In this document: one piece after another, positions 307 to 27,025 of the stretch
Numbering within the stretch: position 1 is the stretch's first letter
Layout of the letters: the number at the start of each line of letters is the position of its first letter
Position numbers and translations under genes: made by a program
Notes under the pieces: generated by a model
What the model was told of the DNA's origin: nothing
Seen by the model: the letters and a program-made list of their open reading frames with translations, nothing else
The model's database searches: none
From: Candidatus Obscuribacterales bacterium
GTDB taxonomy: Bacteria > Cyanobacteriota > Vampirovibrionia > Obscuribacterales > Obscuribacteraceae
DNA length: 45,528 nt
Direction of reading: 5' to 3'
NCBI GenBank assembly: GCA_020050685.1
Contig: JAGVKG010000009.1
Location: 1 to 45,528, forward strand

Positions 307-1641
307 ATGGTTCTTTCAGAGACTATAAAGTTCCCAGTTCATTGGCGTGTTGCCCGAATAAGCGATTTCGCCAAAGTCAAAGGGGGCAAGAGACTGCCGC
401 TCGGCACAGCGCTTACGTCAGAACCTACAGACCATCCTTATATCAGAGTATCGGACTTCAAGGATGGGTTTGTGGAAAAGTCCGGTCTTCAATTTGTTCC
501 GGATGAAGTATTTCCAAAAATTGCTCGCTATACAATTTCTTCGTCTGACATTTACATTTCTATTGTCGGAACGATTGGATTAATTGGACGAGTAGGTGCG
601 GAGTTGGAAGGAGCCAATTTGACGGAAAATGCAGCGAAGATATGTGAAATAGAGCCGTGGGTAGACACGGATTATTTGAAGTATTTTCTACGGTCGCAAC
701 GGGGACAAGAGCAAATTCGCGCATTAACGGTCGGTTCCACGCAGCCAAAACTTGCGTTATTTCGAATTGGAGATATTCAGATACCGATACCGCCGAAAGG
801 AGAACAGCTCTGGATATCACAAGTGCTTCGCAATCTTGACAACAAAATTCGGCTAATCCGGCAAATGAACGAGACCTTGGAAGGCATTGCCATGGCGATT
901 TTCAAATCATGGTTTATAGACTTTGATCCAGTCCGGGCAAAAAGTGAAGGCAGGCAGCCCGCAGGAATGTCAAAGGAGATTGCCGACTTATTCCCAAATA
1001 ATTTGTCGGATTGTGACGTTGGACAAAAGCCCGAGGGGTGGTGTAAATGCACACTGGAAGATTTTGCAGAGCTAAATCCAGAAAGCTGGTCAAAGAGTAC
1101 TGCACCCGAAAAGATTGCTTACGTTGACCTGTCGAATACAAAGTGGGGAGTAATAGAATCTACCACTAATTACTTTTGGCAAGATGCTCCAAGTCGGGCT
1201 CAGCGGGTGCTTAGATTGGGTGACTCGATCGTTGGAACGGTTCGGCCAGGAAACGGCTCTTATGCAATTATCTCAGAGGCTGGACTTACGGGAAGTACTG
1301 GCTTTGCTGTCCTCCGCCCCAAAACGCAAGAATTTACCGAGTTCGTCTATCTTGCGGCTACTGCTCCAGAGAATATCGAAAGGCTGGCACATTTAGCGGA
1401 TGGCGGTGCATATCCAGCAGTGCGTCCTGAAGTTGTGGCTGCCACAAGCGTAACCATCCCTGCTAATCGGGTAATAATTGAAGAGTTCAGTAAAATTACT
1501 AGAACCTTGCTCAATAAAATCGCCGAAAATGGCCGAGAATCACGAACGCTCGCAGGGTTACGTGACGCGCTCCTTCCCAAACTTTTATCAGGCGAGATCA
1601 AGATAAAAGAAACAGAAAAACAACTGGAGCAAGTTCTATGA
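307..1641 (+). CDS. hsdS: Type I restriction-modification specificity subunit
   Basis: A 444-residue protein that recognises the target DNA sequence for the HsdMSR complex. It has the usual two-lobed layout: a first target recognition domain (about residues 8-150), a helical conserved spacer (about 165-215, with [19 protein letters not shown]), a second recognition domain (about 245-390, starting with PEGW), and a second conserved helix ending in [14 protein letters not shown]. The ATG at 307 is chosen because it follows the hsdM stop by one base and is preceded by a GGGG purine stretch. A longer frame opening at 247 would overlap hsdM. The two recognition domains look unrelated, so a bipartite asymmetric target is expected; the actual target cannot be read from the sequence. 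Confidence 0.93.
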
Positions 1642-4600
1642 AGGTTGCGGAATCATCTGTTGAACAAGTAGCCTTGGAGTGGTATCAAGAGCTTGGGTAT
1701 AGTATCTTGTACGGTCCAACTGTTGAGCCTGGAAAAGAACTGGCAGAAAGAGATGGCCTTGGAGAAACCATTCTTACCAGAAGGCTAAACGAAGCGCTTC
1801 AAAAACTAAATCCTGATTTGTCGATTGAAGCACAGGAAGATGCTTTACGGAAAGTACTTGGTCACAGTTCACCGTCTTTGGTGGTAAACAACCGGAACTT
1901 CCATCAGATGCTTGTTAATGGTATCAGTGTAGAATTCCGGAGGGACGATGGTTCAATAGGCGGTACGCAGATAAAGCTAATTGATTTTGACAATCCCGAA
2001 AACAATGACTGGTTAGCCGTAAATCAATTTACCCTGATAGAGGGTAAGCATAACCGCAGGCCAGATGTTGTTGTTTTCGTAAATGGTCTGCCTTTAGCTG
2101 TAATCGAACTTAAAAATCCAACCGATGAAGAGGCAGATGTTGAAGCGGCCTTCCGGCAATTGCAGACATACAAAGAACAAATCCCGTCACTCTTTGCCTT
2201 TAACGAACTTTCGATCATTTCCGACGGACTTCAAGCACGGGTAGGTTCACTAACCGCGGACTTTGAGCGGTTTATGCCGTGGCGAACAGTTGATGGTGAT
2301 GACATAGCACCTCCCGGCGGTCTTGAACTGGAGGTTCTTCTTAAAGGTGTGTTCGAGAAAGAACGTTTCCTTGACCTGATCAGATTTTGTATTGTGTTTC
2401 AAGAGGAGCAGGACGGCGTTATAGTCAAAAAAGTTGCTGGTTATCACCAGTTTCATGCGGTGCGTAAAGCGGTAGACGCAACGATCCAAGCCTGTGCACC
2501 ATCGGGTGATAAACGTTGCGGTGTGGTATGGCATACGCAAGGTTCCGGTAAGAGCCTAACGATGGCATTTTATTCCGGGAAGATAGTTATTCATCCGGCA
2601 ATGGAAAATCCGACGCTGCTAATAATCACAGATCGCAACGATCTGGACAACCAGCTATTTGGGACTTTTGCGAGCTGCCATGAGTTGTTGCGGCAAACAC
2701 CAGTGCAGGCAGACAGCCGAATCAAACTGAGAGAGCTTCTAAAGGTGGCTTCCGGTGGCGTTGTATTTACAACTATTCAAAAGTTTTTTCCAGAAGAAAA
2801 GGGAGACAGTTACCCGCTTTTGTCTGATAGGCGCAACATCATTGTTATCGCTGATGAGGCCCACCGAAGCCAGTATGATTTTATTGATGGTTTTGCCAGG
2901 CACATGCGCGACGCGCTTCCGAACGCCTCATTTATTGGCTTCACGGGAACGCCTATTGAGCTGACGGATAAAAACACTAGGGCTGTGTTTGGTGATTACA
3001 TAAGCATTTATGATATTCAACGGGCTGTTGAAGACAAGGCCACGGTTCCCATTTTCTATGAAAGCCGTCTGGCAAAACTTGAATTAAAGGAAGAGGAAAA
3101 ACCTTATATCGATCCGGGCTTTGAAGAAGTTACCGAGGGCGAAGAAACGCAGCGCAAAGAAAAACTCAAGACAAAATGGGCAGCGCTTGAAGCTCTGGTT
3201 GGCTCTGAAAAGCGAATAGGTTTGGTGGCAAAGGATTTGGTGGCACATTTTGAAAAACGCCTTGAGACCCTAGAAGGCAAGGCGATGATTGTTTGCATGA
3301 GCAGGCGTATTTGCGTGGAACTATATGAAGCAATTCGCAAGATAAGACCAGATTGGCATGACAATGATGACGCCAAAGGACAAATGAAAATTGTCATGAC
3401 CGGCTCAGCAAGTGATCCTTTAGATTGGCAGGGACATATTCACAATAAGAAAACGCGAGAAGATTTAGCAAATCGCTTCAAAAACCCGAAGGATGAATTC
3501 AAGCTTGTAATTGTGCGTGACATGTGGCTGACCGGCTTCGATGCTCCCTGCCTGCACACAATGTACTTGGACAAACCAATGCGCGGACATGGCTTAATGC
3601 AGGCTATTGCCCGCGTGAACAGAGTATTCAAAGACAAGCCGGGTGGTCTTGTTGTCGATTATCTTGGAATAGCCACTGAGTTGAAACAAGCGCTATCAAC
3701 TTATACGGAAAGTGGTGGCAGTGGTAAAGCCGCCATCGATCAAGAAGAAGCCGTAGCTGTCATGCTGGAAAAGTACGAGGTCTGCGGCAATCTATTCCAT
3801 GGCTTTGATTGGTCTGCCTGGAAAGCCGGTTCAGCATCGACACAGCTAAAATTAATTCCTGCGGGTCAGGAGCACATTTTGAAGCAAGAGAAAGGCAAAG
3901 AAAGACTTCTTAAGTCTGTCACCGAGCTCACGCAAGCATTTGCTTTAGCCGTGCCTCACAGCAAGGCAATCGTGATTAGGGACGATGTTTCTTTCTTTCA
4001 AGCAATAAAGGCTGCCTTAGTAAAAACGATAAGAACGTCACAGCAAACAGCCGAACAGCTTGAACATGCGTTGAAACAACTGGTATCACGGGCAGTATCT
4101 TCCACAGAGGTGATGGACGTGTTTGCTCTTGCCGGGTTGAAGAAGCCCGATATTTCAATTCTTTCTGATGAATTCCTTGCTGAAGTTAGAGACTTGCCGC
4201 ATCGGAATTTAGCGGTGGAACTTTTGCAAAAGCTTCTGAAAGATGAGGTTAGGAGCAAGTTACGGAAGAACTTGGTGCAAAACAGATCATTCCTGGAACT
4301 ACTTGAACGAGCCTTAAAAAAATATCAGAGTCGAGCGATTGAAACTGCGCAAGTGATAGAAGAACTTATTGCCTTAGCTAAGGACTTACGCGAGGCTAGC
4401 AGTCGGGGTGCCGAGCTTGGTTTAACCGAAGATGAAGTGGCATTTTATGACGCTTTAGAAGTCAATGATAGCGCCGTAAAAGTTTTGGGAGATGCCACCC
4501 TTAAACAGATTGCCAGAGATCTTGTGGTGGCAGTTAGAAACAACATAGGCATAGACTGGAGCATCAAGGAAAGCGTCCGGGCAAACTTGCGCAGGCATGT

Positions 4601-4703
4601 TAAGCGGGTGCTTTTGAAATATGGCTATCCACCGGACAAGCAAGAAAAGGCTGTGGAGTTGGTTTTGCAACAGACAGAGATGTTATCGGAGGAATGGGCT
4701 TAG
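1638..4703 (+). CDS. hsdR: Type I restriction endonuclease subunit R
   Basis: A 1021-residue motor and nuclease subunit of the type I system. In order it shows a PD-(D/E)xK nuclease domain (RPDVVVF near residue 141, then AVIELKN near 153-159, then a QxxxY-like [10 protein letters not shown]), Walker A TQGSGKS near 299-305, the DEAH box IADEAHRSQ near 402-410, motif III FTGTPI, and the late helicase motif [10 protein letters not shown]. The C-terminal third is helical, as expected for the part that contacts the methylase core. Length is normal for the family. It starts inside the hsdS stop (ATGA overlap, 1638-1641), so translation is coupled. No frameshift or missing motif is visible, so the restriction system appears intact apart from the unseen part of hsdM. 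Confidence 0.95.
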
Positions 4704-4760: not shown

Positions 4761-6929
4761 ATGAACAAAGTAAGCGTGGAGTTGGAGAACTGCTATGGGA
4801 TCAAAGAGCTTAAAGCAGAATTTGATTTCAGTAATGGCAATGCTTACGCAATTTATGCCGCCAACGGCGCCATGAAGTCATCTCTGGCCCAAACATTCAA
4901 AGATGTAGTTGACGGAGTACCTTCAAAAGATCGGATTTTCCCGAATAGATCGTCGAATCGGAAAATCACAAATGGAAGCAACACAGAGCTACCCAAGGAA
5001 ACCGTTTTGGTTATTCAACCATATGACGAAGTTTTTGGCCATACAGAGAAGACGTCTACACTTTTAGTTGACAGTGTATTGAGAAAGGAATACGAAAAAC
5101 TTCATGAGGATATAGAACGATCAAAAGAACTCTTTCTCAAAGCGCTGAAAGAGCAGACCGGTTCCAAGCAGGATCTGGAAAGAGAAGTTTCTTTGGCGTT
5201 TACAAAGAGCGATGATGAGTTTTACACGGCCCTTATCAGGATTAAAGACGAAGTGTTGGGCCAAAAGGATTCGCCATTCGCCTCCGTAAGCTACGACAGG
5301 ATCTTTGATGAAAAGATTGTGGCCTTCTTAAACACAAAAGATTTCAAAACAGCAATTCAGGAGTACATCCAAAAGTACAATGAATTGCTTGCGGCATCTA
5401 CGTATTTCAAAAAGGGGATCTTTAACTACTACAATGCTGCAACCATAGCTAAAAGCCTGGCTGACAACGGATTCTTTGATGCAAAGCACACTGTAAACCT
5501 CAATGCGGATACTAAAACTGAAATAACCAATGTAGATGAACTTGAGGCACTGATTGAAAAAGAGAAAGACAATATAGTCAACGATGACAATTTAAAGAAG
5601 AAATTCGCAGAGATCGAAAAACAGATCAATAAAAATAAAGACCTTCGAGAGTTTCACGCTTACCTGCTGGAGAATGAGGAACTGCTGGCCGAGTTGGCAA
5701 ACTTAGGAAAGTTCAAGGAGAAGTTGTGGAAGTCCTATTTCAAAGTCAAGATAGACCTGTACAAGGATCTGGTTGACAAATATCAAGCAGCCGAAACGAG
5801 AAAGAAAGAAATTGAGAAGACAGCTGGACAGCAACGAACACAATGGGAGTCAGTAATTGAGATTTTCAATAACCGGTTTTTTGTGCCATTTAAATTGACC
5901 GCAAAGAATAGAACTGCTGTTATCCTCGGACAGGAACCCCTTTTACAGCTAGGATTCACATTTGAAGATGGCAGCGAAATTGCTTCCCTAGAAAAAGGGG
6001 AGCTATTGCAAGCCTTGAGTACAGGAGAGAAAAAAGCCCTATACGTTCTAAATATAATCTTTGAAGTAGAGGCACGTAAAAAATCGTGCCAGGAAACGAT
6101 ATTCATAATCGATGACATTGCTGACTCTTTTGACTACAAGAACAAGTACGCGATAATTGAGTATCTAAAGGAAATATCGGAAGAGCCGTTTTTCCACCAA
6201 ATTATTCTTACCCATAATTTTGATTTTTTCCGTACCGTGGAAAGCAGGCGGATTGTCCCTTATAACAATTGCTTGATGGCCTTTAGAACCAGTAAGGGAC
6301 TCACTTTGCAAAAAGCCACCGGAATTAAAAACGTATTTGTGAATGACTGGAAGCCAAAATTCTTTGATGACCCTAAAAAGATGATTGCTTCAATACCGTT
6401 CATGAGGAACATCATTGAGTACACAAAAGGTGACACAGACCCGAACTACATAAGATTGACATCCCTTGTGCACTGGAAAGATGATTCAGACAGCATTACG
6501 CAAGGAGACCTTGCCGGCATTTACAACGAGTTGTTTGGAGGATCAAAAACTCCGGCGGACAAAACTAAAACAGTCATGAAGGTAATACAGGAAATGGCAC
6601 AGGAATGCCTCAAAGCCCCCGACGGGGTTAATTTTGAAAATAAAATCACACTAGCAATAGCCATAAGGCTTGCCGCTGAGCAGTACATGATAAGAAAAAT
6701 AAATAACCAGAGCCTTGTGTCTAAATTTGATAGGAACCAAACCATTCAGCTCCTAAAGGAGTATAAAGCCATGTACAGCTCAGAGTTAGTTGCCATAGAT
6801 ACCCTGCAAAGAGTTGCTCTTATGACACCAGAAAGTATTCATCTAAACTCGTTCATGTATGAGCCAATACTAGATATGTCGGATGAACATTTACGGCGCC
6901 TATTGACTGATGTTCAAGCTCTGGCCTAG
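4761..6929 (+). CDS. AAA_13/ABC-type ATPase next to type I R-M; possible PrrC/RloC-like anticodon nuclease
   Basis: A 722-residue ABC-fold ATPase with a coiled-coil middle. The P-loop reads YAANGAMKSS (about residues 31-40), with Met where most ABC ATPases have Gly. A long charged helical region covers about 105-370. The ABC signature is LSTGEKKA (about 419-426), Walker B is IFIIDDIAD (about 447-455), and the H-loop is LTHNFDFF (about 482-489). After the ATPase come R549-x3-E553 and H571, a pattern resembling the Arg-Glu-His triad described for PrrC and RloC tRNA anticodon nucleases, although the Glu-to-His spacing is shorter than I recall for PrrC. No CxxC zinc hook is present, unlike RloC. 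It lies 57 bp after hsdR with a GAGGAG ribosome binding site, so it is probably in the same transcript. ATPase assignment is firm; the nuclease function is inference. Confidence 0.72.
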   Translation: MNKVSVELENCYGIKELKAEFDFSNGNAYAIYAANGAMKSSLAQTFKDVVDGVPSKDRIFPNRSSNRKITNGSNTELPKETVLVIQPYDEVFGHTEKTSTLLVDSVLRKEYEKLHEDIERSKELFLKALKEQTGSKQDLEREVSLAFTKSDDEFYTALIRIKDEVLGQKDSPFASVSYDRIFDEKIVAFLNTKDFKTAIQEYIQKYNELLAASTYFKKGIFNYYNAATIAKSLADNGFFDAKHTVNLNADTKTEITNVDELEALIEKEKDNIVNDDNLKKKFAEIEKQINKNKDLREFHAYLLENEELLAELANLGKFKEKLWKSYFKVKIDLYKDLVDKYQAAETRKKEIEKTAGQQRTQWESVIEIFNNRFFVPFKLTAKNRTAVILGQEPLLQLGFTFEDGSEIASLEKGELLQALSTGEKKALYVLNIIFEVEARKKSCQETIFIIDDIADSFDYKNKYAIIEYLKEISEEPFFHQIILTHNFDFFRTVESRRIVPYNNCLMAFRTSKGLTLQKATGIKNVFVNDWKPKFFDDPKKMIASIPFMRNIIEYTKGDTDPNYIRLTSLVHWKDDSDSITQGDLAGIYNELFGGSKTPADKTKTVMKVIQEMAQECLKAPDGVNFENKITLAIAIRLAAEQYMIRKINNQSLVSKFDRNQTIQLLKEYKAMYSSELVAIDTLQRVALMTPESIHLNSFMYEPILDMSDEHLRRLLTDVQALA

Positions 6930-7285: not shown

Positions 7286-8506
7286 TTACAAACCAAGCTC
7301 TCGTCCGAGAATCTGTCCAATGAAATTGTTGTCGTTTGATTTCGCTCGGATACCATCTCTAAGCACCGAGCGGACATTTTCCGCTTCGCCCACTTTTTCG
7401 GCGGCAGCGATTGTGTTTGAATATGCTTCCCAGACATCCGCGCCGGTTATTTCGTAGCCGTAACCATTGATAAGCCATTGCAGCGCAGAGAGACCAGCGC
7501 ACATGGCAAATGCCGCGTCAATTTCTAAATAATCACGCGCTGCACGCGTGAGTGTGCGCGGATCGCAAGGGCTCGTTCTTGCCAATTGCAATGCTAATTC
7601 AAATAGTCCAAGTTCCTTTGCAGTGGCAAACCATTTGCCCTCTTCACCGGGAGTGGTATCAATCAAGTCGTTCAATATTTCTTGCGGCTGCTTGTGCGGA
7701 TACTTGCGGGCAATCGCACGATATGTTGCCAGATTTGATGTACCACGATTGGCTTCCAGTGCGTAACGCTTGTATGCTTCATCGGACATGCCTGATGAGA
7801 GCAAAATTTCCTCACACAAGCTCGCCACTGAAGCACCGGGCGTCCATTGCCCGCGGCAACTTTCCGCGTGCTTGAGCGCCTCCGCCTTTTTTCCCATTGC
7901 CGCCAATGCTTTTACTGCGTACTGTTGATAGTGCCAAAATTTGCTTTGGTCCAGTTTGAGAAGGTCGAACAATTCCGCGTATCGCTCGGCTTTATAAAGT
8001 GCGCTCAAGCAGGCGGGCGTGCCGTGAAAAAATGTATGGCGTGATGCATCGAGAGTCCAGCAAGTTTTCACCGTGTCAATCAGATCATCGGCCCAGGCTG
8101 ATGCCAATTCTTTGCCGGCACAAAGATCGCCCCAGTAATCGGCAAGACGTTCAATATAAGGAATTTGATCTTCCGCGTGCGCTTGCCACAATCGCTCAAG
8201 CCACTTTTGCCGCGTCTTATCGTCTGCTGACGCCTCGGCGATGATGCGCGCCAATTCTTCAATGGCGCGATAAACCGCCGAGCCGATTGCACCGGATGAG
8301 CCATCGACATTTTCGATAGCCGGTGAAACTCGCTCCAGAAATATCACCGCGCCTTCTGCGGCAAGCTGCGGATCTTTGCGTGCCACTTTTTTGATTTCGC
8401 TTACCGCTTCTTTGATGCGCGTGATTGCCGGCTGCGATTTCCAACCGAACGCCTGGCGCCGGAAGCGCGCTTTGAATTGCCATTTGTGTGTTTCTACAGT
8501 AACCAT
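7286..8506 (-). CDS. Helical-repeat (TPR/HEAT-like) protein of unknown function
   Basis: A 406-residue soluble protein made of alternating amphipathic helices. The N-terminal part is basic (THKWQFKARFRRQAFGWKS), followed by a helical block (about 30-130) and then repeats such as YAELFDLLKL, YAVKALAAMGKKAEALKHA and AYKRYALEANRGTSNLATYRAIARKYP that look like TPR-type hairpins. No catalytic motif, signal peptide or membrane segment is seen. The region resembles an uncharacterised bacterial DUF often annotated together with SWIM zinc-finger proteins, but I cannot name it with confidence. The ATG at 8506 is used; a TTG at 8509 directly before it is an alternative. No strong ribosome binding site is visible for either. 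It sits alone on the minus strand between two plus-strand defence-like units. Confidence 0.7.
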   Translation of the reverse strand: MVTVETHKWQFKARFRRQAFGWKSQPAITRIKEAVSEIKKVARKDPQLAAEGAVIFLERVSPAIENVDGSSGAIGSAVYRAIEELARIIAEASADDKTRQKWLERLWQAHAEDQIPYIERLADYWGDLCAGKELASAWADDLIDTVKTCWTLDASRHTFFHGTPACLSALYKAERYAELFDLLKLDQSKFWHYQQYAVKALAAMGKKAEALKHAESCRGQWTPGASVASLCEEILLSSGMSDEAYKRYALEANRGTSNLATYRAIARKYPHKQPQEILNDLIDTTPGEEGKWFATAKELGLFELALQLARTSPCDPRTLTRAARDYLEIDAAFAMCAGLSALQWLINGYGYEITGADVWEAYSNTIAAAEKVGEAENVRSVLRDGIRAKSNDNNFIGQILGRELGL

Positions 8507-8784
8507 CAATCAACTTGATAACGCAATTGTTGTGACACTTCGCCTCAAACAAAGACGGTGTCAGTCAAATAGTCTATCAAACACAATTTTGCAGCAAGCA
8601 AGCCACCCACCCCATTACATCCAATATCGCGAATTTAATCCAAAAATTTTGAACTTTTTTGGGGGTTCGAGCGTCTTAGTAATTAGACGTGCCTTTCTCA
8701 ATCTTGACTTCCCGGGGTTGAGGCAAATATGCAAATGGAAATGGGGCGTCCATTGATATTGGGAATAACACTGAATGAGGGGAA
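8507..8784. other. Divergent intergenic region containing repeat copy A
   Basis: A 278-bp region between the minus-strand helical-repeat gene and tcmP. It contains repeat copy A (8613-8670) and otherwise AT-rich sequence with no recognisable gene. A GAGGGG ribosome binding site for tcmP lies at about 8777-8782. Confidence 0.5.
8613..8670 (-). repeat. Dispersed repeat, copy A
   Basis: Positions 8613-8654 match 13321-13362 at 38 of 42 bases by eye, including the unbroken block AATTTAATCCAAAAATTTTG. The second half of the element, seen in copies B and C (a block ending TTGACCGTCTTTA), is absent here and replaced by TTTTTTGGGGGTTCGAGCG. It lies in a divergent intergenic region, so it is not coding here. 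Confidence 0.75.
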
Positions 8785-9927
8785 ATGGTGCCAGCTATGA
8801 CAGATGATTTCTTTCACGAAAGCACTGAGCAATCTCAGCTCAAATCCGCGATTGTTCATGAATATTTCGTTCAATGGTCACGAGTGATCACTGGTGTTCA
8901 GCGACTGTCTTCATCGCCGCTGAAATTGGCCTATATCGATTTATATGCCGGACCAGGCTCATACAACGATGGGCGCCCATCCACACCACTTATGATTCTC
9001 GATTCAGCAATCAAGGATCCTACTTTGTCTCAGTCGCTAATTTCAGTGTTCAATGATAGCAATCCAGATAGTGTCACTTCGCTTCGTCAGGCAATCTCCG
9101 AACTCCCGGATATTTCCAAGATGAAAGTACCTCCTGTTGTGCACAACAAAGAAGTTGGTCAGGAGATTGTTGATATGCTGAAAGCCAAAAAGTTGATTCC
9201 AACCCTTTTGTTTTTAGATCCATGGGGATATAAGGGACTCACGCTCGAGCTTTTGAATGCGGTGCTCAAAGATTGGGGTTGCGATTGTATTTTCTTTTTC
9301 AATTTCAACCGTATCAACATGGGGCTTGCAAATGATCTAGTTATAGAACATATGGATGGGCTCTTTGGCAAAGAGAGAGCAGAGCGGTTGCGCGTCGAGC
9401 TTCAGTTACTCAAACCACTGGAAAAGGAAAGGAGGGTATTGGGTGCAATCGAGGACGCTCTTCGAGAAGCATATGGAAAATTCTTTTTGAGCTTTAAGTT
9501 CAGGTTTGATATTGGTCCGCGGACGAGTCATTACTTAATCTTCGTCACCAAGAATTACAAGGGTTATGACATCATGAAGCAGATAATGGCAAAACACAGC
9601 TCGACAAATGTCCACGAGGTGCCTTCTTTCGAGTACAATCCTCCTGTGGTACGACACCAATTGTTACTCAACCTGAGAGATCCAATTGCAGAATTATCTC
9701 AAAAGCTTCTTTCAAAATATGCAGAAAAAACAATCGCATTCAAACAATTGTATGAAAGCGATAACGTCGGTACGCCATACATTCCGAAGAACTATAAGCG
9801 CGCTCTCCTTGAATTAGAAGAGCGGGGGGCTATAAGAATGAATCCGGAAAAGAGACAAGTCCGAAACGGGGTCAAAACTATAGGTGACAATGTGATGATT
9901 TCATTTCCACAGATGAGGAACCTTTAG
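8785..9927 (+). CDS. tcmP: Three-Cys-motif partner protein TcmP, putative SAM-dependent methyltransferase
   Basis: A 380-residue protein with a Rossmann-like methyltransferase core: YIDLYAGPGSY (about residues 50-60) fits the SAM-binding motif I and LLFLDPWGYKG (about 141-151) fits a DPxG/DPPY-like motif IV. The C-terminal 100 residues look like a winged-helix domain (YKRALLELEERGAI). The family TcmP is known as a frequent neighbour of DUF5131 proteins that carry a three-cysteine motif, and exactly such a gene starts one base after this stop. Substrate and biological role are unknown. GAGGGG ends two to three bases before the ATG at 8785, which is close; the ATG at 8797 (MTDDFF) has a longer spacing and is an equally credible start. 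Confidence 0.88.
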   Translation: MVPAMTDDFFHESTEQSQLKSAIVHEYFVQWSRVITGVQRLSSSPLKLAYIDLYAGPGSYNDGRPSTPLMILDSAIKDPTLSQSLISVFNDSNPDSVTSLRQAISELPDISKMKVPPVVHNKEVGQEIVDMLKAKKLIPTLLFLDPWGYKGLTLELLNAVLKDWGCDCIFFFNFNRINMGLANDLVIEHMDGLFGKERAERLRVELQLLKPLEKERRVLGAIEDALREAYGKFFLSFKFRFDIGPRTSHYLIFVTKNYKGYDIMKQIMAKHSSTNVHEVPSFEYNPPVVRHQLLLNLRDPIAELSQKLLSKYAEKTIAFKQLYESDNVGTPYIPKNYKRALLELEERGAIRMNPEKRQVRNGVKTIGDNVMISFPQMRNL

Positions 9928-9928
9928 T

Positions 9929-10669
9929 ATGTCAATCACTTCCGATATTGAATGGACAGACGCTACTTGGAACCCGGTAACTGGGTGCACCAAGGTTAGC
10001 CCCGGCTGCAAAAATTGTTACGCCGAAACTTTTGCTGAGAGATTTCGGGGCGTGCCGGATCACCCATATGAACAAGGCTTCGATCTGCGACTATGGCCAA
10101 ACAGATTAGATTTACCGCTGTCATGGAAGAAACCCAAACGAATATTTGTAAATTCAATGAGTGACTTGTTCCACCAAGATGTGCCAACTGAATACATCCT
10201 CAGCGTGTTTGAAACTATGCGAAAGGCAAAATGGCACCAATTTCAAGTTCTCACTAAACGCCACGAACGTTTACTGAAGTTGGACAAGCATCTCGTCTGG
10301 GCTCCCAATATCTGGATGGGTGTAAGCGTAGAGAGCCAGTCTTATGTACACAGAATTGACTATCTCCGCAAAACCCGCGCTAATATCAAATTCTTATCTC
10401 TCGAACCTTTGCTTGGGCCAATTGAGCACATGGATCTTGTTGGCATAGATTGGGTAATTGTTGGTGGCGAATCCGGCTGTAGGCCACGGCCAATTGAAGA
10501 GAGCTGGGTTCGTTCGATTCGCAACCAATGCAAAAAGGCACGAACGGCATTTTTCTTTAAGCAATGGGGCGGGCGCAATAAAAAACAGGCGGGCCGTCTT
10601 TTCGAAGGCCGTACTTGGGATGAGATGCCCGAGCAACAGCTTGCCAAAATTACAAGATCACTTGGGTAA
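9929..10669 (+). CDS. DUF5131 (phage Gp37/Gp68) family three-Cys-motif protein
   Basis: A 246-residue protein of the DUF5131 family. The opening IEWTDATWNPVTGC is characteristic. C20, C27 and C30 (GC-x6-C-x2-C, followed by YAE) form the three-cysteine motif, which could hold an Fe-S cluster as in radical-SAM proteins. Later conserved stretches are FVNSMSDLFH, QVLTKR, WMGVSVES, FLSLEPLLGPI, WVIVGGESG and FFFKQWGG, compatible with a TIM-barrel-like fold. It begins one base after the tcmP stop, so the two genes must be co-translated. The family name refers to phage genes, but no other phage gene is present here. A joint RNA or nucleotide modification or defence function is inference only. Confidence 0.9.
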   Translation: MSITSDIEWTDATWNPVTGCTKVSPGCKNCYAETFAERFRGVPDHPYEQGFDLRLWPNRLDLPLSWKKPKRIFVNSMSDLFHQDVPTEYILSVFETMRKAKWHQFQVLTKRHERLLKLDKHLVWAPNIWMGVSVESQSYVHRIDYLRKTRANIKFLSLEPLLGPIEHMDLVGIDWVIVGGESGCRPRPIEESWVRSIRNQCKKARTAFFFKQWGGRNKKQAGRLFEGRTWDEMPEQQLAKITRSLG

Positions 10670-10698: not shown

Positions 10699-11631
10699 TT
10701 ACTTTTTCCGTCGATTGCGCCTCGCGCATGTCGGGCAACCATAACCCCTCCTGGTACGAGTCTGCACAGAAGCTCTCCAGGAATGTCCACACGCGTTGCA
10801 GTGCCACCACACTTTTAGCTTAGTCCCGAGTGTCAATTTGGACGGGTCGATTCCCTTATTCCTTTTTACATCGTATTCCTTCATTAACGCGCGAGCCAAA
10901 GTGAGGTTATTGGTGGAGGAAGCTAGGCGCCCGCGGCAAAAAGGACAATGTTCATTTGCTCTCTCCTTCCAGAATCCAGAAAACCAAACATGATCCTTGC
11001 CTTTCGGACAGCGCCACCACACCTTCGAATTAACCGGCAGTTTAAAAGGATCGATTCCCTTGTTTTTCTTTCTGTCAAAGTATTTTAATTGGCCGGGATA
11101 ATGCTTCAATCCCTCCGTGCGATCCGCGCGACAATGCGGGCAACCCGTTCGATCCGGCCCGGTTCGATCGGCAACCATTGCCTGCCATACATGTGTCTTC
11201 TTTATCGAACACTGCCAAAATGCAGCCTTCGTCGATCGAATAGTAACTTCATCCGGTTCGCAATCGTTCAAAGTGCGGTGCCACTGTTTAGCAACAGCCG
11301 GTGCAAGGCAGGCAAGTGAATTAGTCACGGACACTTTGTTGCTTGCGCAAAATGGGCAGCCGGTATCGCATGCAGTTCGAATGTTGATTTTCTGTCGCCA
11401 AACATGATCTTTGCCCTTCTTGCAATGCCACCAGGCATTGACCATTGAGCCGAAGCTAAAATCATCCGGACTGAAGCCGCAATTTTTCGCATAGTACCAC
11501 TGAGCCGCAATCGCGGGCGCCTTCTTCGCCAGTGTCGTGCGCCCTTGCAGTGGATAAGGCTGAACAACTGTTTCTATGGGGATGCCATAAAGCACCTGCC
11601 CGTCGAACACTTGTTTTTGCAGTCGTGGCAT
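10699..11631 (-). CDS. Protein with four treble-clef zinc-ribbon repeats (DUF4379-like)
   Basis: A 310-residue basic protein built from four copies of a roughly 65-residue unit. Each unit has an N-terminal helix (for example LAPAVAKQW, LARALMKEY), then WW-x-C...HVW, then CPxC. Cysteines are C70/C92/C95, C141/C164/C167, C208/C229/C232 and C278/C281/C299/C302. Only the last unit has the full CxxC...CxxC set; the first three keep one cysteine plus a GKDH/KKTH histidine, which could be the fourth ligand. This matches the probable zinc-ribbon family often fused to Vsr- or HNH-like nucleases, but no nuclease domain is present here. The role may be nucleic-acid binding. It converges on the DUF5131 gene with 29 bp between stops. 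The ATG at 11631 lacks a strong ribosome binding site. Confidence 0.82.
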   Translation of the reverse strand: MPRLQKQVFDGQVLYGIPIETVVQPYPLQGRTTLAKKAPAIAAQWYYAKNCGFSPDDFSFGSMVNAWWHCKKGKDHVWRQKINIRTACDTGCPFCASNKVSVTNSLACLAPAVAKQWHRTLNDCEPDEVTIRSTKAAFWQCSIKKTHVWQAMVADRTGPDRTGCPHCRADRTEGLKHYPGQLKYFDRKKNKGIDPFKLPVNSKVWWRCPKGKDHVWFSGFWKERANEHCPFCRGRLASSTNNLTLARALMKEYDVKRNKGIDPSKLTLGTKLKVWWHCNACGHSWRASVQTRTRRGYGCPTCARRNRRKK

Positions 11632-24232: not shown

Positions 24233-27025
24233 ATGACGAAGACACAAGACAAAAACGAAAGCCAAGTGCAGGAGAAGAGCGGGTTGCCAAAACTCGATCC
24301 GAAACTTAGCACTTGGATAATGTCCGGTGTTTGTTTTGTGATCGCCTTCGTTGCCAGTCTTGCCCAGAACTTATCGCGTGGCAGCCGGGAATTGGTTTTC
24401 GTATTTGACTCCGGGCATTATCTCGGTTCCTGCACAAAGATATGCACCTTTTGGCAAGCATTGCTTCATCAAGGATTCTCCGCCAGCGTCAAAGATCAGC
24501 TAACCGGAATGACCGACAGTCTTTTATTAGATGGACCAGTGCTGCCCATGCTTTGTTCTTCTTTCTTTTTAATAGCCAATCGCATTCCTAGTTATTTAGA
24601 TTCGCAGATTGTTGTAATTGAGCAAGGACTGATTCAAGCCCTTTCTGCCTTCCTTATGTTCTTTCTTGCGCGTCGTTTTACAAACTCTAATCGCTGGGCA
24701 ATTGTTGCCAGTCTGCTTTGGGCTCTTTATCCGGCGGCGCTTATTGGTGCCGGACGTCTGCTTCCAGAAACAACCACTGCACTGCTTTTGGTATCGCTTG
24801 TTTTGACGCTAGCCATAGTTGTTGCCGACTCAGTCACTAGCAAATTAAGATCAAATCTTTTGACCGTACTGGGCGGATGGCTGAGTGCGTTACTTCTATT
24901 AGCCAAACCGGCATTGGGGCCAGCAACATTTATTGTTGATATCATCTTTTTGCTTTCACATAGACCAATCAAGCAAATCATAGTCAGAGCATTGTTGCTC
25001 TTCGTTGGTGGCATCATCGCCATGTCGCCCTGGATGTTATACACCTACGCAGCCACTGGACAGATTATGGTTACCGCTCAACGCGTACCTGTATTCAATA
25101 TAGTCAATGGGCTTGATCAAGAAAGCAATGGTTGGGCAAGTATTCCACCAAGCCGCTTTGTCAATTTATTTACGGAAGGATTGGGCATCGGCAATGTGAC
25201 ACTCAGCATTTTCAAAGCAGAGCCAGAAAAGACAATCACATTGGTCTTGCGCAAAATTCCACGTTTATGGCAAGTGCCCTGGAACGACTTCCGCTCTAAA
25301 GTCGCAGGTATCAGCTGTGGGCCACAAATCTGGTGGCATCAATTATTATGTTTGCTAGGCGTGTTTGGTGCATTAGCATTTTTTGCTAACACCAAATTGT
25401 TTAACTTAAGTGTTGCAAACACGACAGAAGAAAAATCAATTCGCTTTATTGGTTACGCCAGTGCAGTTCTCTTGCTTGGGCATGTGATTTACGCAGGCTT
25501 CCTCGCCTCTGCCAGATATGGCTTTACCGCCTTGCCGTTATTTACACTTTTCGCAGCCTATGCGCTAATGCGTCTTGCCCTGGTTAAATGGCGGGCAAAG
25601 CTAATTACATTGGCAGCATCAGCTGTTATTTTCCTGCTCATTTCACAAGCAGACCTTGTTCCTTACCTTGCACAAGTCTTTGGAGCCAACGCAGATCTGA
25701 AATGGTTTGCTCTGGTTATTCAATTATTGGTTGCCGCTGACTTGCTGCGCGTTTTATATAGCAATTTGAATGTCAGTAATGCCGGCGAAAAATTTCCGAT
25801 TAGTGGCAAGCTAGCATTTGCTCTATTGTTTTTCTCCTACGCAATAGTCCGACTTGCATTTGCCATGGATCAAACTGCAGCTAATGAATGGTCCTCCACA
25901 CTCAAGCCAGGAGAACAAGCAGTTCGACAAATTGCAGCTTCACAGGCCACAGGAAAAAATCCGGAATGGGCACTGGTTGTTTTTGACGGTGATGCAGAAA
26001 GTCGAAATGCAAAGGTCAAGGTAAATGGCCAATACCTCTCCGAGGCACCCAATACTCTCTATGTATTTAACGCTGCTGATGCCGGTCTTTCTCAATTCCA
26101 AGTATTTTCCGCATTGCTCAGAATGTCGGCAGAGAAACTTCGCCAATGGCGCGCCGTGCCAGTGCCAATATCGTTATTGAAGGCAAGCGGCGACAACGAA
26201 ATATCCATTGAAGCCGGTGGCACTGAGCCAATAACCATTTATGGTGGCTACCCATCGGACACAAAGGGTAAATGGTCAATTCCATCCTTCAATTTATTCA
26301 GTCCAACCAAATTGGTGAATTCCACGGATACCCTCGAATGCCGACCAATTTCCATTCAGCCTGTACAAACCACAGGCACGCAAAGCTTTCTGCAGGATAG
26401 CAAGGGAAAACATGCGGATGATTTATCACCTGCGCTCGGAAAACAATTTGGACAGTATCGCATTTTGCTTTTCCTCGGTTATGCGCAAGAGAAGCCAAAT
26501 ACTACCGCCACGACCACGAACGCAAAAGATCCAGTTGCTCCGATAGAAATAAACTTGACGCCAAACCCAGTTGTCCTCGGCACAACACCGCAATTGTTCC
26601 ATTTTGCCGTTCCCACTTCATTGAGCAAACAAGGTCACGTGAAGGTATCACTCAGTGGAACTCTCTCTGCGAAGGAGAAAAACAAAGTCACAATTCAGGG
26701 CACTGTGTCGGAAGGAATGACTACGGTCTTCTTCTTCCCCGGCACACCGCACATGTTTGATCTGGATAGAACATCCAAGACCGGAAGTTCAATTGCCCGC
26801 GAGTCATATCCAGGTTCGTCAGATCCGAAAACATCTGCAGAGCCGGAGCAAGCAGATTTCAATTTGCAGGCTCAGATAGCTTGCGACAAAGCAAATATTT
26901 TCTCCGAGATTCTCGAGTTCTCTTTCGTGTCCCTCAGACCAGGCACCACAATCAAAAACTTGAAGGCGCGCATCACGCCAAGCGATCTCGCCAACTTCAA
27001 CGATCACGATATCACCGTGCATTAA
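24233..27025 (+). CDS. Polytopic membrane glycosyltransferase (GT-C/GT39-like) with long exported C-terminus
   Basis: A 930-residue protein. A cytoplasmic lead of about 27 residues is followed by roughly 12 hydrophobic segments up to about residue 545. The first extracytoplasmic loop contains FVFDSGHYL with Asp59, the position of the catalytic acid in GT-C enzymes such as ArnT and PMT, and EQGLIQALSAFLMFFLARRF and LYPAALIGAGRLLPETTTALL match the dolichyl/undecaprenyl-phosphate sugar transferase pattern. The last 385 residues are hydrophilic, rich in beta strands and Thr/Ser/Pro, and probably lie in the periplasm as one or two sandwich domains; this is longer than in most GT39 proteins. GAGG precedes the ATG. 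It ends the glycan cluster, and repeat copy C starts three bases after the stop. Confidence 0.75.
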   Translation: MTKTQDKNESQVQEKSGLPKLDPKLSTWIMSGVCFVIAFVASLAQNLSRGSRELVFVFDSGHYLGSCTKICTFWQALLHQGFSASVKDQLTGMTDSLLLDGPVLPMLCSSFFLIANRIPSYLDSQIVVIEQGLIQALSAFLMFFLARRFTNSNRWAIVASLLWALYPAALIGAGRLLPETTTALLLVSLVLTLAIVVADSVTSKLRSNLLTVLGGWLSALLLLAKPALGPATFIVDIIFLLSHRPIKQIIVRALLLFVGGIIAMSPWMLYTYAATGQIMVTAQRVPVFNIVNGLDQESNGWASIPPSRFVNLFTEGLGIGNVTLSIFKAEPEKTITLVLRKIPRLWQVPWNDFRSKVAGISCGPQIWWHQLLCLLGVFGALAFFANTKLFNLSVANTTEEKSIRFIGYASAVLLLGHVIYAGFLASARYGFTALPLFTLFAAYALMRLALVKWRAKLITLAASAVIFLLISQADLVPYLAQVFGANADLKWFALVIQLLVAADLLRVLYSNLNVSNAGEKFPISGKLAFALLFFSYAIVRLAFAMDQTAANEWSSTLKPGEQAVRQIAASQATGKNPEWALVVFDGDAESRNAKVKVNGQYLSEAPNTLYVFNAADAGLSQFQVFSALLRMSAEKLRQWRAVPVPISLLKASGDNEISIEAGGTEPITIYGGYPSDTKGKWSIPSFNLFSPTKLVNSTDTLECRPISIQPVQTTGTQSFLQDSKGKHADDLSPALGKQFGQYRILLFLGYAQEKPNTTATTTNAKDPVAPIEINLTPNPVVLGTTPQLFHFAVPTSLSKQGHVKVSLSGTLSAKEKNKVTIQGTVSEGMTTVFFFPGTPHMFDLDRTSKTGSSIARESYPGSSDPKTSAEPEQADFNLQAQIACDKANIFSEILEFSFVSLRPGTTIKNLKARITPSDLANFNDHDITVH

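Follow-up and report, generated by a model that had tools for sequence, protein, structure and literature searches.

The gene at positions 4761-6929 (+) of the window, by which we mean the whole 45,528-nucleotide stretch of DNA that was analysed, encodes a 722-residue ABC ATPase of the PDC-S46 family with a C-terminal domain that may be HEPN-like. The explanation we prefer, with about even confidence, is a stand-alone ABC-ATPase/HEPN-type RNase with its active site at R636/E640/H694, for which tRNA is a plausible substrate. The protein had originally been predicted to be a PrrC/RloC-like RNase fused to an ABC ATPase, free of a zinc hook and outside the named families; this general idea fits, but the residues proposed at the time are probably wrong and the link to type I restriction is not general. 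The gain is a corrected residue set, R636, E640 and H694 versus R549, E553 and H571, and a separation from type I restriction.

Gene and family

The reading frame, taken from the open reading frame list of the window, starts with ATG and lies behind the remains of a type I restriction operon in the order hsdM(end)-hsdS-hsdR, as had been proposed. The contig begins inside hsdM, of which the last 100 residues are present (3-305, +), assigned by a frame open to the stop at 303-305, a GRYVG motif and the position before hsdS rather than by a profile. The specificity subunit gene hsdS follows (247-1641, +; PF01420, E 1.3e-23), with a listed start that overlaps hsdM and a real start that is probably further in, and then the restriction subunit gene hsdR (1638-4703, +; PF04313, PF18766 and PF11867). 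All of these share the strand of the PDC-S46 gene, which is separated from the end of hsdR by 57 bp, and a scan for promoter-like and terminator-like signals gave none above the expectation from shuffled sequence.

The match to PDC-S46 (PADLOC PDLC05023) runs from end to end, with residues 1-721 on model positions 1-718 of 719 (E 8.4e-279), and is accompanied by one to phrog_38705, a model of 723 positions (E 5.4e-186). ‘PDC’ denotes a phage defence candidate (PMC11514479), and a literature search for PDC-S46 found no paper, with no function reported in the sources searched. The family is consequently not new in the strict sense, as it is already catalogued as an uncharacterised defence candidate. 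On the other side, family models place the protein as neither PrrC nor RloC: PF13166 (AAA_13), the Pfam family to which the RloC-like comparators belong, does not match it at E <= 1, nor does the PADLOC PrrC model PDLC02360 at the same threshold, on which genuine PrrCs score E 1e-134 or better.

A one-genome-per-species collection yielded at least 374 matching stretches, from bacteria that include Proteobacteria, Actinobacteria, Cyanobacteria and Bacteroidota, and the family was also found in 25 plasmid records, conjugative plasmids among them, and in 6 viral contigs. We fetched 80 of the 374 stretches and aligned first 74 and then 80 members, at a median pairwise identity of 46%. Presence is patchy among the relatives of the window's own organism, with a full-length copy in 2 of 98 besides the window's genome, and close relatives occur in unrelated bacteria (73% in Gallionella, 71% in Nitrosomonas), which together suggest a pattern of horizontal spread. 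Tails of this type were not recovered beyond the family, as a tail profile run against 386 genomes returned family members only. A sequence search of the PDB gave no match for the query and one chance match for the family profile, Pfam on 74 tails returned scattered chance matches only, and scans of viral contigs with PrrC and two AAA_13 proteins as queries gave no relatives.

ATPase head and middle region

All four elements of an ABC/SMC-type ATPase, i.e. Walker A, the LSxGE signature, Walker B and the H-loop, are present and conserved, with an atypical Walker A. The latter reads NGAMKSS (residues 35-41, 4863-4883, +; GAMKSS being 36-41), and the alignment of 80 gives the family form NGxMK[ST]S, with Met in 78 members and Leu in two at the position of Met38. 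In ABC ATPases, Gly normally precedes the catalytic Lys of Walker A, and sequence comparison indicates that this Gly is retained in PrrC, AAA_13 and RloC. The signature LSTGE (419-423, 6015-6029, +) has its L, S, G and E invariant in the 80 relatives, while Walker B, IIDD (449-452, 6105-6116, +), is followed by the family-specific D455-x-F457-D458-Y459-K460-N461-K462 and the H-loop is LTHN (483-486, 6207-6218, +), both read as motifs and recovered in the same alignment. The original prediction had placed these motifs correctly.

The middle that it described as a coiled coil is helical in the AlphaFold model, over approximately residues 105-357; the whole-protein AlphaFold2 model, built with 74 sequences, has a pLDDT of 86. 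Full-length Foldseek matches are restricted to generic SMC, Rad50, retron and Septu ATPase heads, and the full-length PDC-S46 model matches the head of the RloC-like protein L098 (E 1.3e-13). The protein has no CxxC, as had been noted, and neither have 78 of the 80 family members; in the other two the motif lies at or near the C-terminal end, not as a zinc hook in the insert.

Genomic surroundings

No fixed partner gene is apparent, since, the family itself aside, each protein cluster is present at 12 or fewer of the 87 loci. Among the families listed, restriction-modification genes (types I, II and III, and Vsr) account for roughly 11-13 of the 60 genes directly upstream and about 4 of the 52 directly downstream, and a single one was seen among 113 distal genes (at least 5 kb away). 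Enrichment beside restriction genes is thus shown. The neighbours are nevertheless a mixture of type I, II and III, most relatives lack adjacent hsd genes, and a type I linkage like that of PrrC is rejected as a family trait by the relatives' neighbourhoods; the linkage in the window is incidental. Plasmid copies adjoin dcm, a type I hsdM-like gene, a DEAD-box helicase or conjugation genes. The surroundings fit a defence gene that travels as mobile cargo and is frequently inserted into defence islands, nearer to the habit of RloC than to that of PrrC.

Several further genes were observed alongside. A two-gene candidate defence pair lies about 1.9 kb downstream in the window (8785-10669, +), with TcmP (TIGR04474, 380 residues, weak PDC-M30A matches) ahead of a DUF5131 protein (PF07505, strong PDC-M30B/M41B matches). 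Between it and the PDC-S46 gene is a 407-residue frame (7286-8509, -) with a sub-threshold DUF6880 match only, and the same island holds a 310-residue protein (10699-11631, -) with four DUF4379 treble-clef zinc finger repeats. At 24233-27025 (+), a 930-residue frame with no Pfam match at E <= 1e-5 adjoins glycosyltransferase and epimerase genes. Elsewhere in the genome a CxxC-bearing RloC-like AAA_13 protein is found (L103; G000:C20, about 24727-25035), so that the genome holds two ABC-type candidate RNases. In two Gallionella-type genomes an sbcD-like gene is directly downstream of PDC-S46 (L006:12271-13509 and L057:12309-13595); the sbcD-like cluster has a member in 7 loci and may merely mark a common insertion site.

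The C-terminal domain

The alignment of 80 members contains 53 invariant positions, and the C-terminal domain can be divided, from alignments and AlphaFold, into two modules that each carry an R-x3-E...H set. The N-module (residues 520-604, 6318-6572, +) holds the residues of the original prediction at the positions given there, R549-N550-I-I-E553 (6405-6419, +) and H571 (6471-6473, +). These are indeed conserved among homologues, with R549 and H571 invariant and E553 present in 79 of 80, Asn replacing it in one member. A second invariant set, R636-x3-E640...H694, did not figure in that prediction. It lies in the C-module (605-722, 6573-6926, +), the proposed HEPN-like RNase core, where R636-x3-E640 sits on a long helix (625-647; motif at 6666-6680, +) in the AlphaFold model and is followed, as E-x53-H, by H694-L-N-S-F-M-Y-E-P702 (6840-6866, +). 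Arg, Glu and His of this set are each found in 80/80 members, K628, T689, N696, F698, M699, E701, P702 and D705 are also invariant nearby, and H-x-N-x2-M-[YF]-E-P is retained in all 80 relatives. When the 24 near-invariant positions of the domain were shuffled 20,000 times, 1.0% of the trials produced one R-x3-E...H set (within 15-60 residues) and no trial produced two.

Modelled alone by AlphaFold2, the C-terminal 203 residues form an all-helical domain (pLDDT 91, pTM 0.89). The only Foldseek matches in the PDB above a probability of 0.5 were 2q00 (0.97, 0.89) and chains of the HepT toxin (0.5-0.6), at E 0.4-2; a search of the viral models in BFVD returned nothing. PMC3710099 counts 2q00 among the HEPN proteins and both PrrC and RloC among the ABC-HEPN RNases. 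The model accordingly suggests a helical fold that may be of the HEPN class, an assignment of low statistical support. The canonical HEPN motif Rx4-6H is not seen: in the aligned family neither H571 nor H694 is preceded, at a distance of 5-7 residues, by a conserved Arg. CxxC-bearing RloC relatives likewise lack the motif. Alignment by hhalign of the tail and of each half against PrrC, zinc-hook RloC, AAA_13 and a merged set was not significant (E 0.02-0.8), an outcome that is uninformative at this depth, since the test fails on accepted PrrC-RloC pairs as well (E 0.2).

Probable assignment of the catalytic set

The triads that have been mutated are R320-E324-H356 in PrrC and R692-E696-H737 in RloC, the Glu-His spacing of the latter being X36-52 (PMC2610378). 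As comparators we used PrrCs from hsdS-prrC-hsdM operons and RloC-like proteins (AAA_13/PDC-S06 relatives) that carry CxxC at about residue 390. Among these RloC-like proteins, 17 of 18 have E-x48-53-H and the other x40, with the His 29-55 residues from the C-terminal end. H694, separated from E640 by 53 residues and lying 28 from the end, is one residue outside the published RloC spacing, with x53 also in two relatives. H571 by comparison, with E-x17-H and 151 residues to the end, fits no PrrC (x31-35) or RloC (x40-53) seen.

A second likeness concerns what follows the His. PrrCs carry S-H-x5-[YF]-E-P at the catalytic His, with H-x5-[YF]EP in 10 of 10 examined, and the same signature begins at H694 in 80/80 family members, despite E-x53-H versus the x31-35 of PrrC; in detail, the family motif matches the H-G-[NK]-Y-S-[LI]-[YF]-E-P of PrrC. 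H-x5-[YF]EP is absent from 370,753 residues (9,785 His) of neighbouring proteins. This resemblance was noticed after the fact and is no more than suggestive. Because of the RloC-like spacing and end distance together with the PrrC signature, we prefer R636/E640/H694 as the candidate catalytic set. R549/E553/H571, although conserved, are probably not the cutting residues, and the ‘shorter Glu-His spacing’ that had appeared to set the protein apart is probably an artefact, created by the choice of H571 as the His.

Alternative explanations

An ABC-RNase could instead cut with R549/E553/H571 across a shortened Glu-His insert, leaving the C-module for substrate binding or dimerisation. Apart from the conservation of these residues, the N-module directly follows the ATPase head, as in PrrC and RloC, the best local AAA_13 profile match of the domain, a weak one, falls at the R549-x3-E553 helix (hhalign, E 0.018-0.039), and by eye IPNAIRNILEY...ESHSDD of the AAA_13 protein L097 resembles IPFMRNIIEY...LVHWKDDS. 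The spacing and the long distance of H571 from the end argue against it, as does the Asn in place of E553 in one member, and we regard this arrangement as quite improbable. Both modules might also contribute to a composite or duplicated active site, R549/E553 or H571 acting with R636/E640/H694, congruent with the conservation of both sets and with the shuffles, in which two sets never arose. Two sets are not known from any PrrC or RloC, however, and we find such a site harder still to credit.

It is also conceivable, if unlikely, that the protein is no nuclease, but an SMC/RecF/SbcC-like ATPase for the sensing or processing of DNA, with a helical tail that binds a partner. The head matches RecF, SMC, Rad50 and retron/Septu ATPases in sequence and fold, and the HEPN evidence is weak. 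Against this, the invariant polar clusters (R, E, H, N, D) of the tail look catalytic, the tail geometry matches RloC, and the loci offer no constant partner. A separate class of ABC-gated RNase, marked by two R-x3-E...H sets per tail, a GxMK pocket and an unusual nucleotide or DNA trigger, and without a zinc hook or fixed restriction partner, we hold to be doubtful.

Proposed mechanism

If the preferred explanation applies, the SMC/RecF-like head would probably sense a state of DNA or nucleotides that is linked to infection or damage, and a nucleotide-driven change would release the C-terminal helical domain. The latter would then cut RNA, plausibly in the anticodon loop of tRNA, with R636, E640 and H694 forming a metal-independent active site, and the cutting would stop translation and phage growth. 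RNase activity, the tRNA target, triggering by phage and sensing of DNA are what we infer for the protein, and so is the originally predicted role as a ‘backup suicide nuclease for phage escape’.

Comparison with known systems

The ATPases of PtuA, retron Eco7 and Septu have a related ABC/SMC-like head but differ in the tail and work together with a separate HNH nuclease; no such partner gene is recognised here. PDC-S46 and phrog_38705 describe the protein itself, which is a member of the same length, and nothing material differs. Though neither by family model, it is likely a variant of the PrrC/RloC kind. With PrrC it shares the ABC head, R-x3-E...H and H-x5-[YF]EP near the C-terminal end, and, in the window, a type I neighbour. 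PrrC, however, measures about 370-400 residues and is encoded in the order hsdS-prrC-hsdM by genes that overlap or nearly abut, in contrast to a 722-residue protein encoded 57 bp after hsdR, with E-x53-H instead of x31-35 and no match to the PrrC model. RloC has in common the ABC head interrupted by a helical middle, a C-terminal R-x3-E-x~50-H and a gene that mostly stands alone. The window protein differs from it in lacking the CxxC zinc hook and a PF13166 match, in its shorter middle, and in having a GxMK Walker A, the extra conserved N-module and YEP after the His. Should the family indeed prove to be an ABC-HEPN RNase, it would form a third branch beside PrrC and RloC, zinc-hook-free and independent of restriction.
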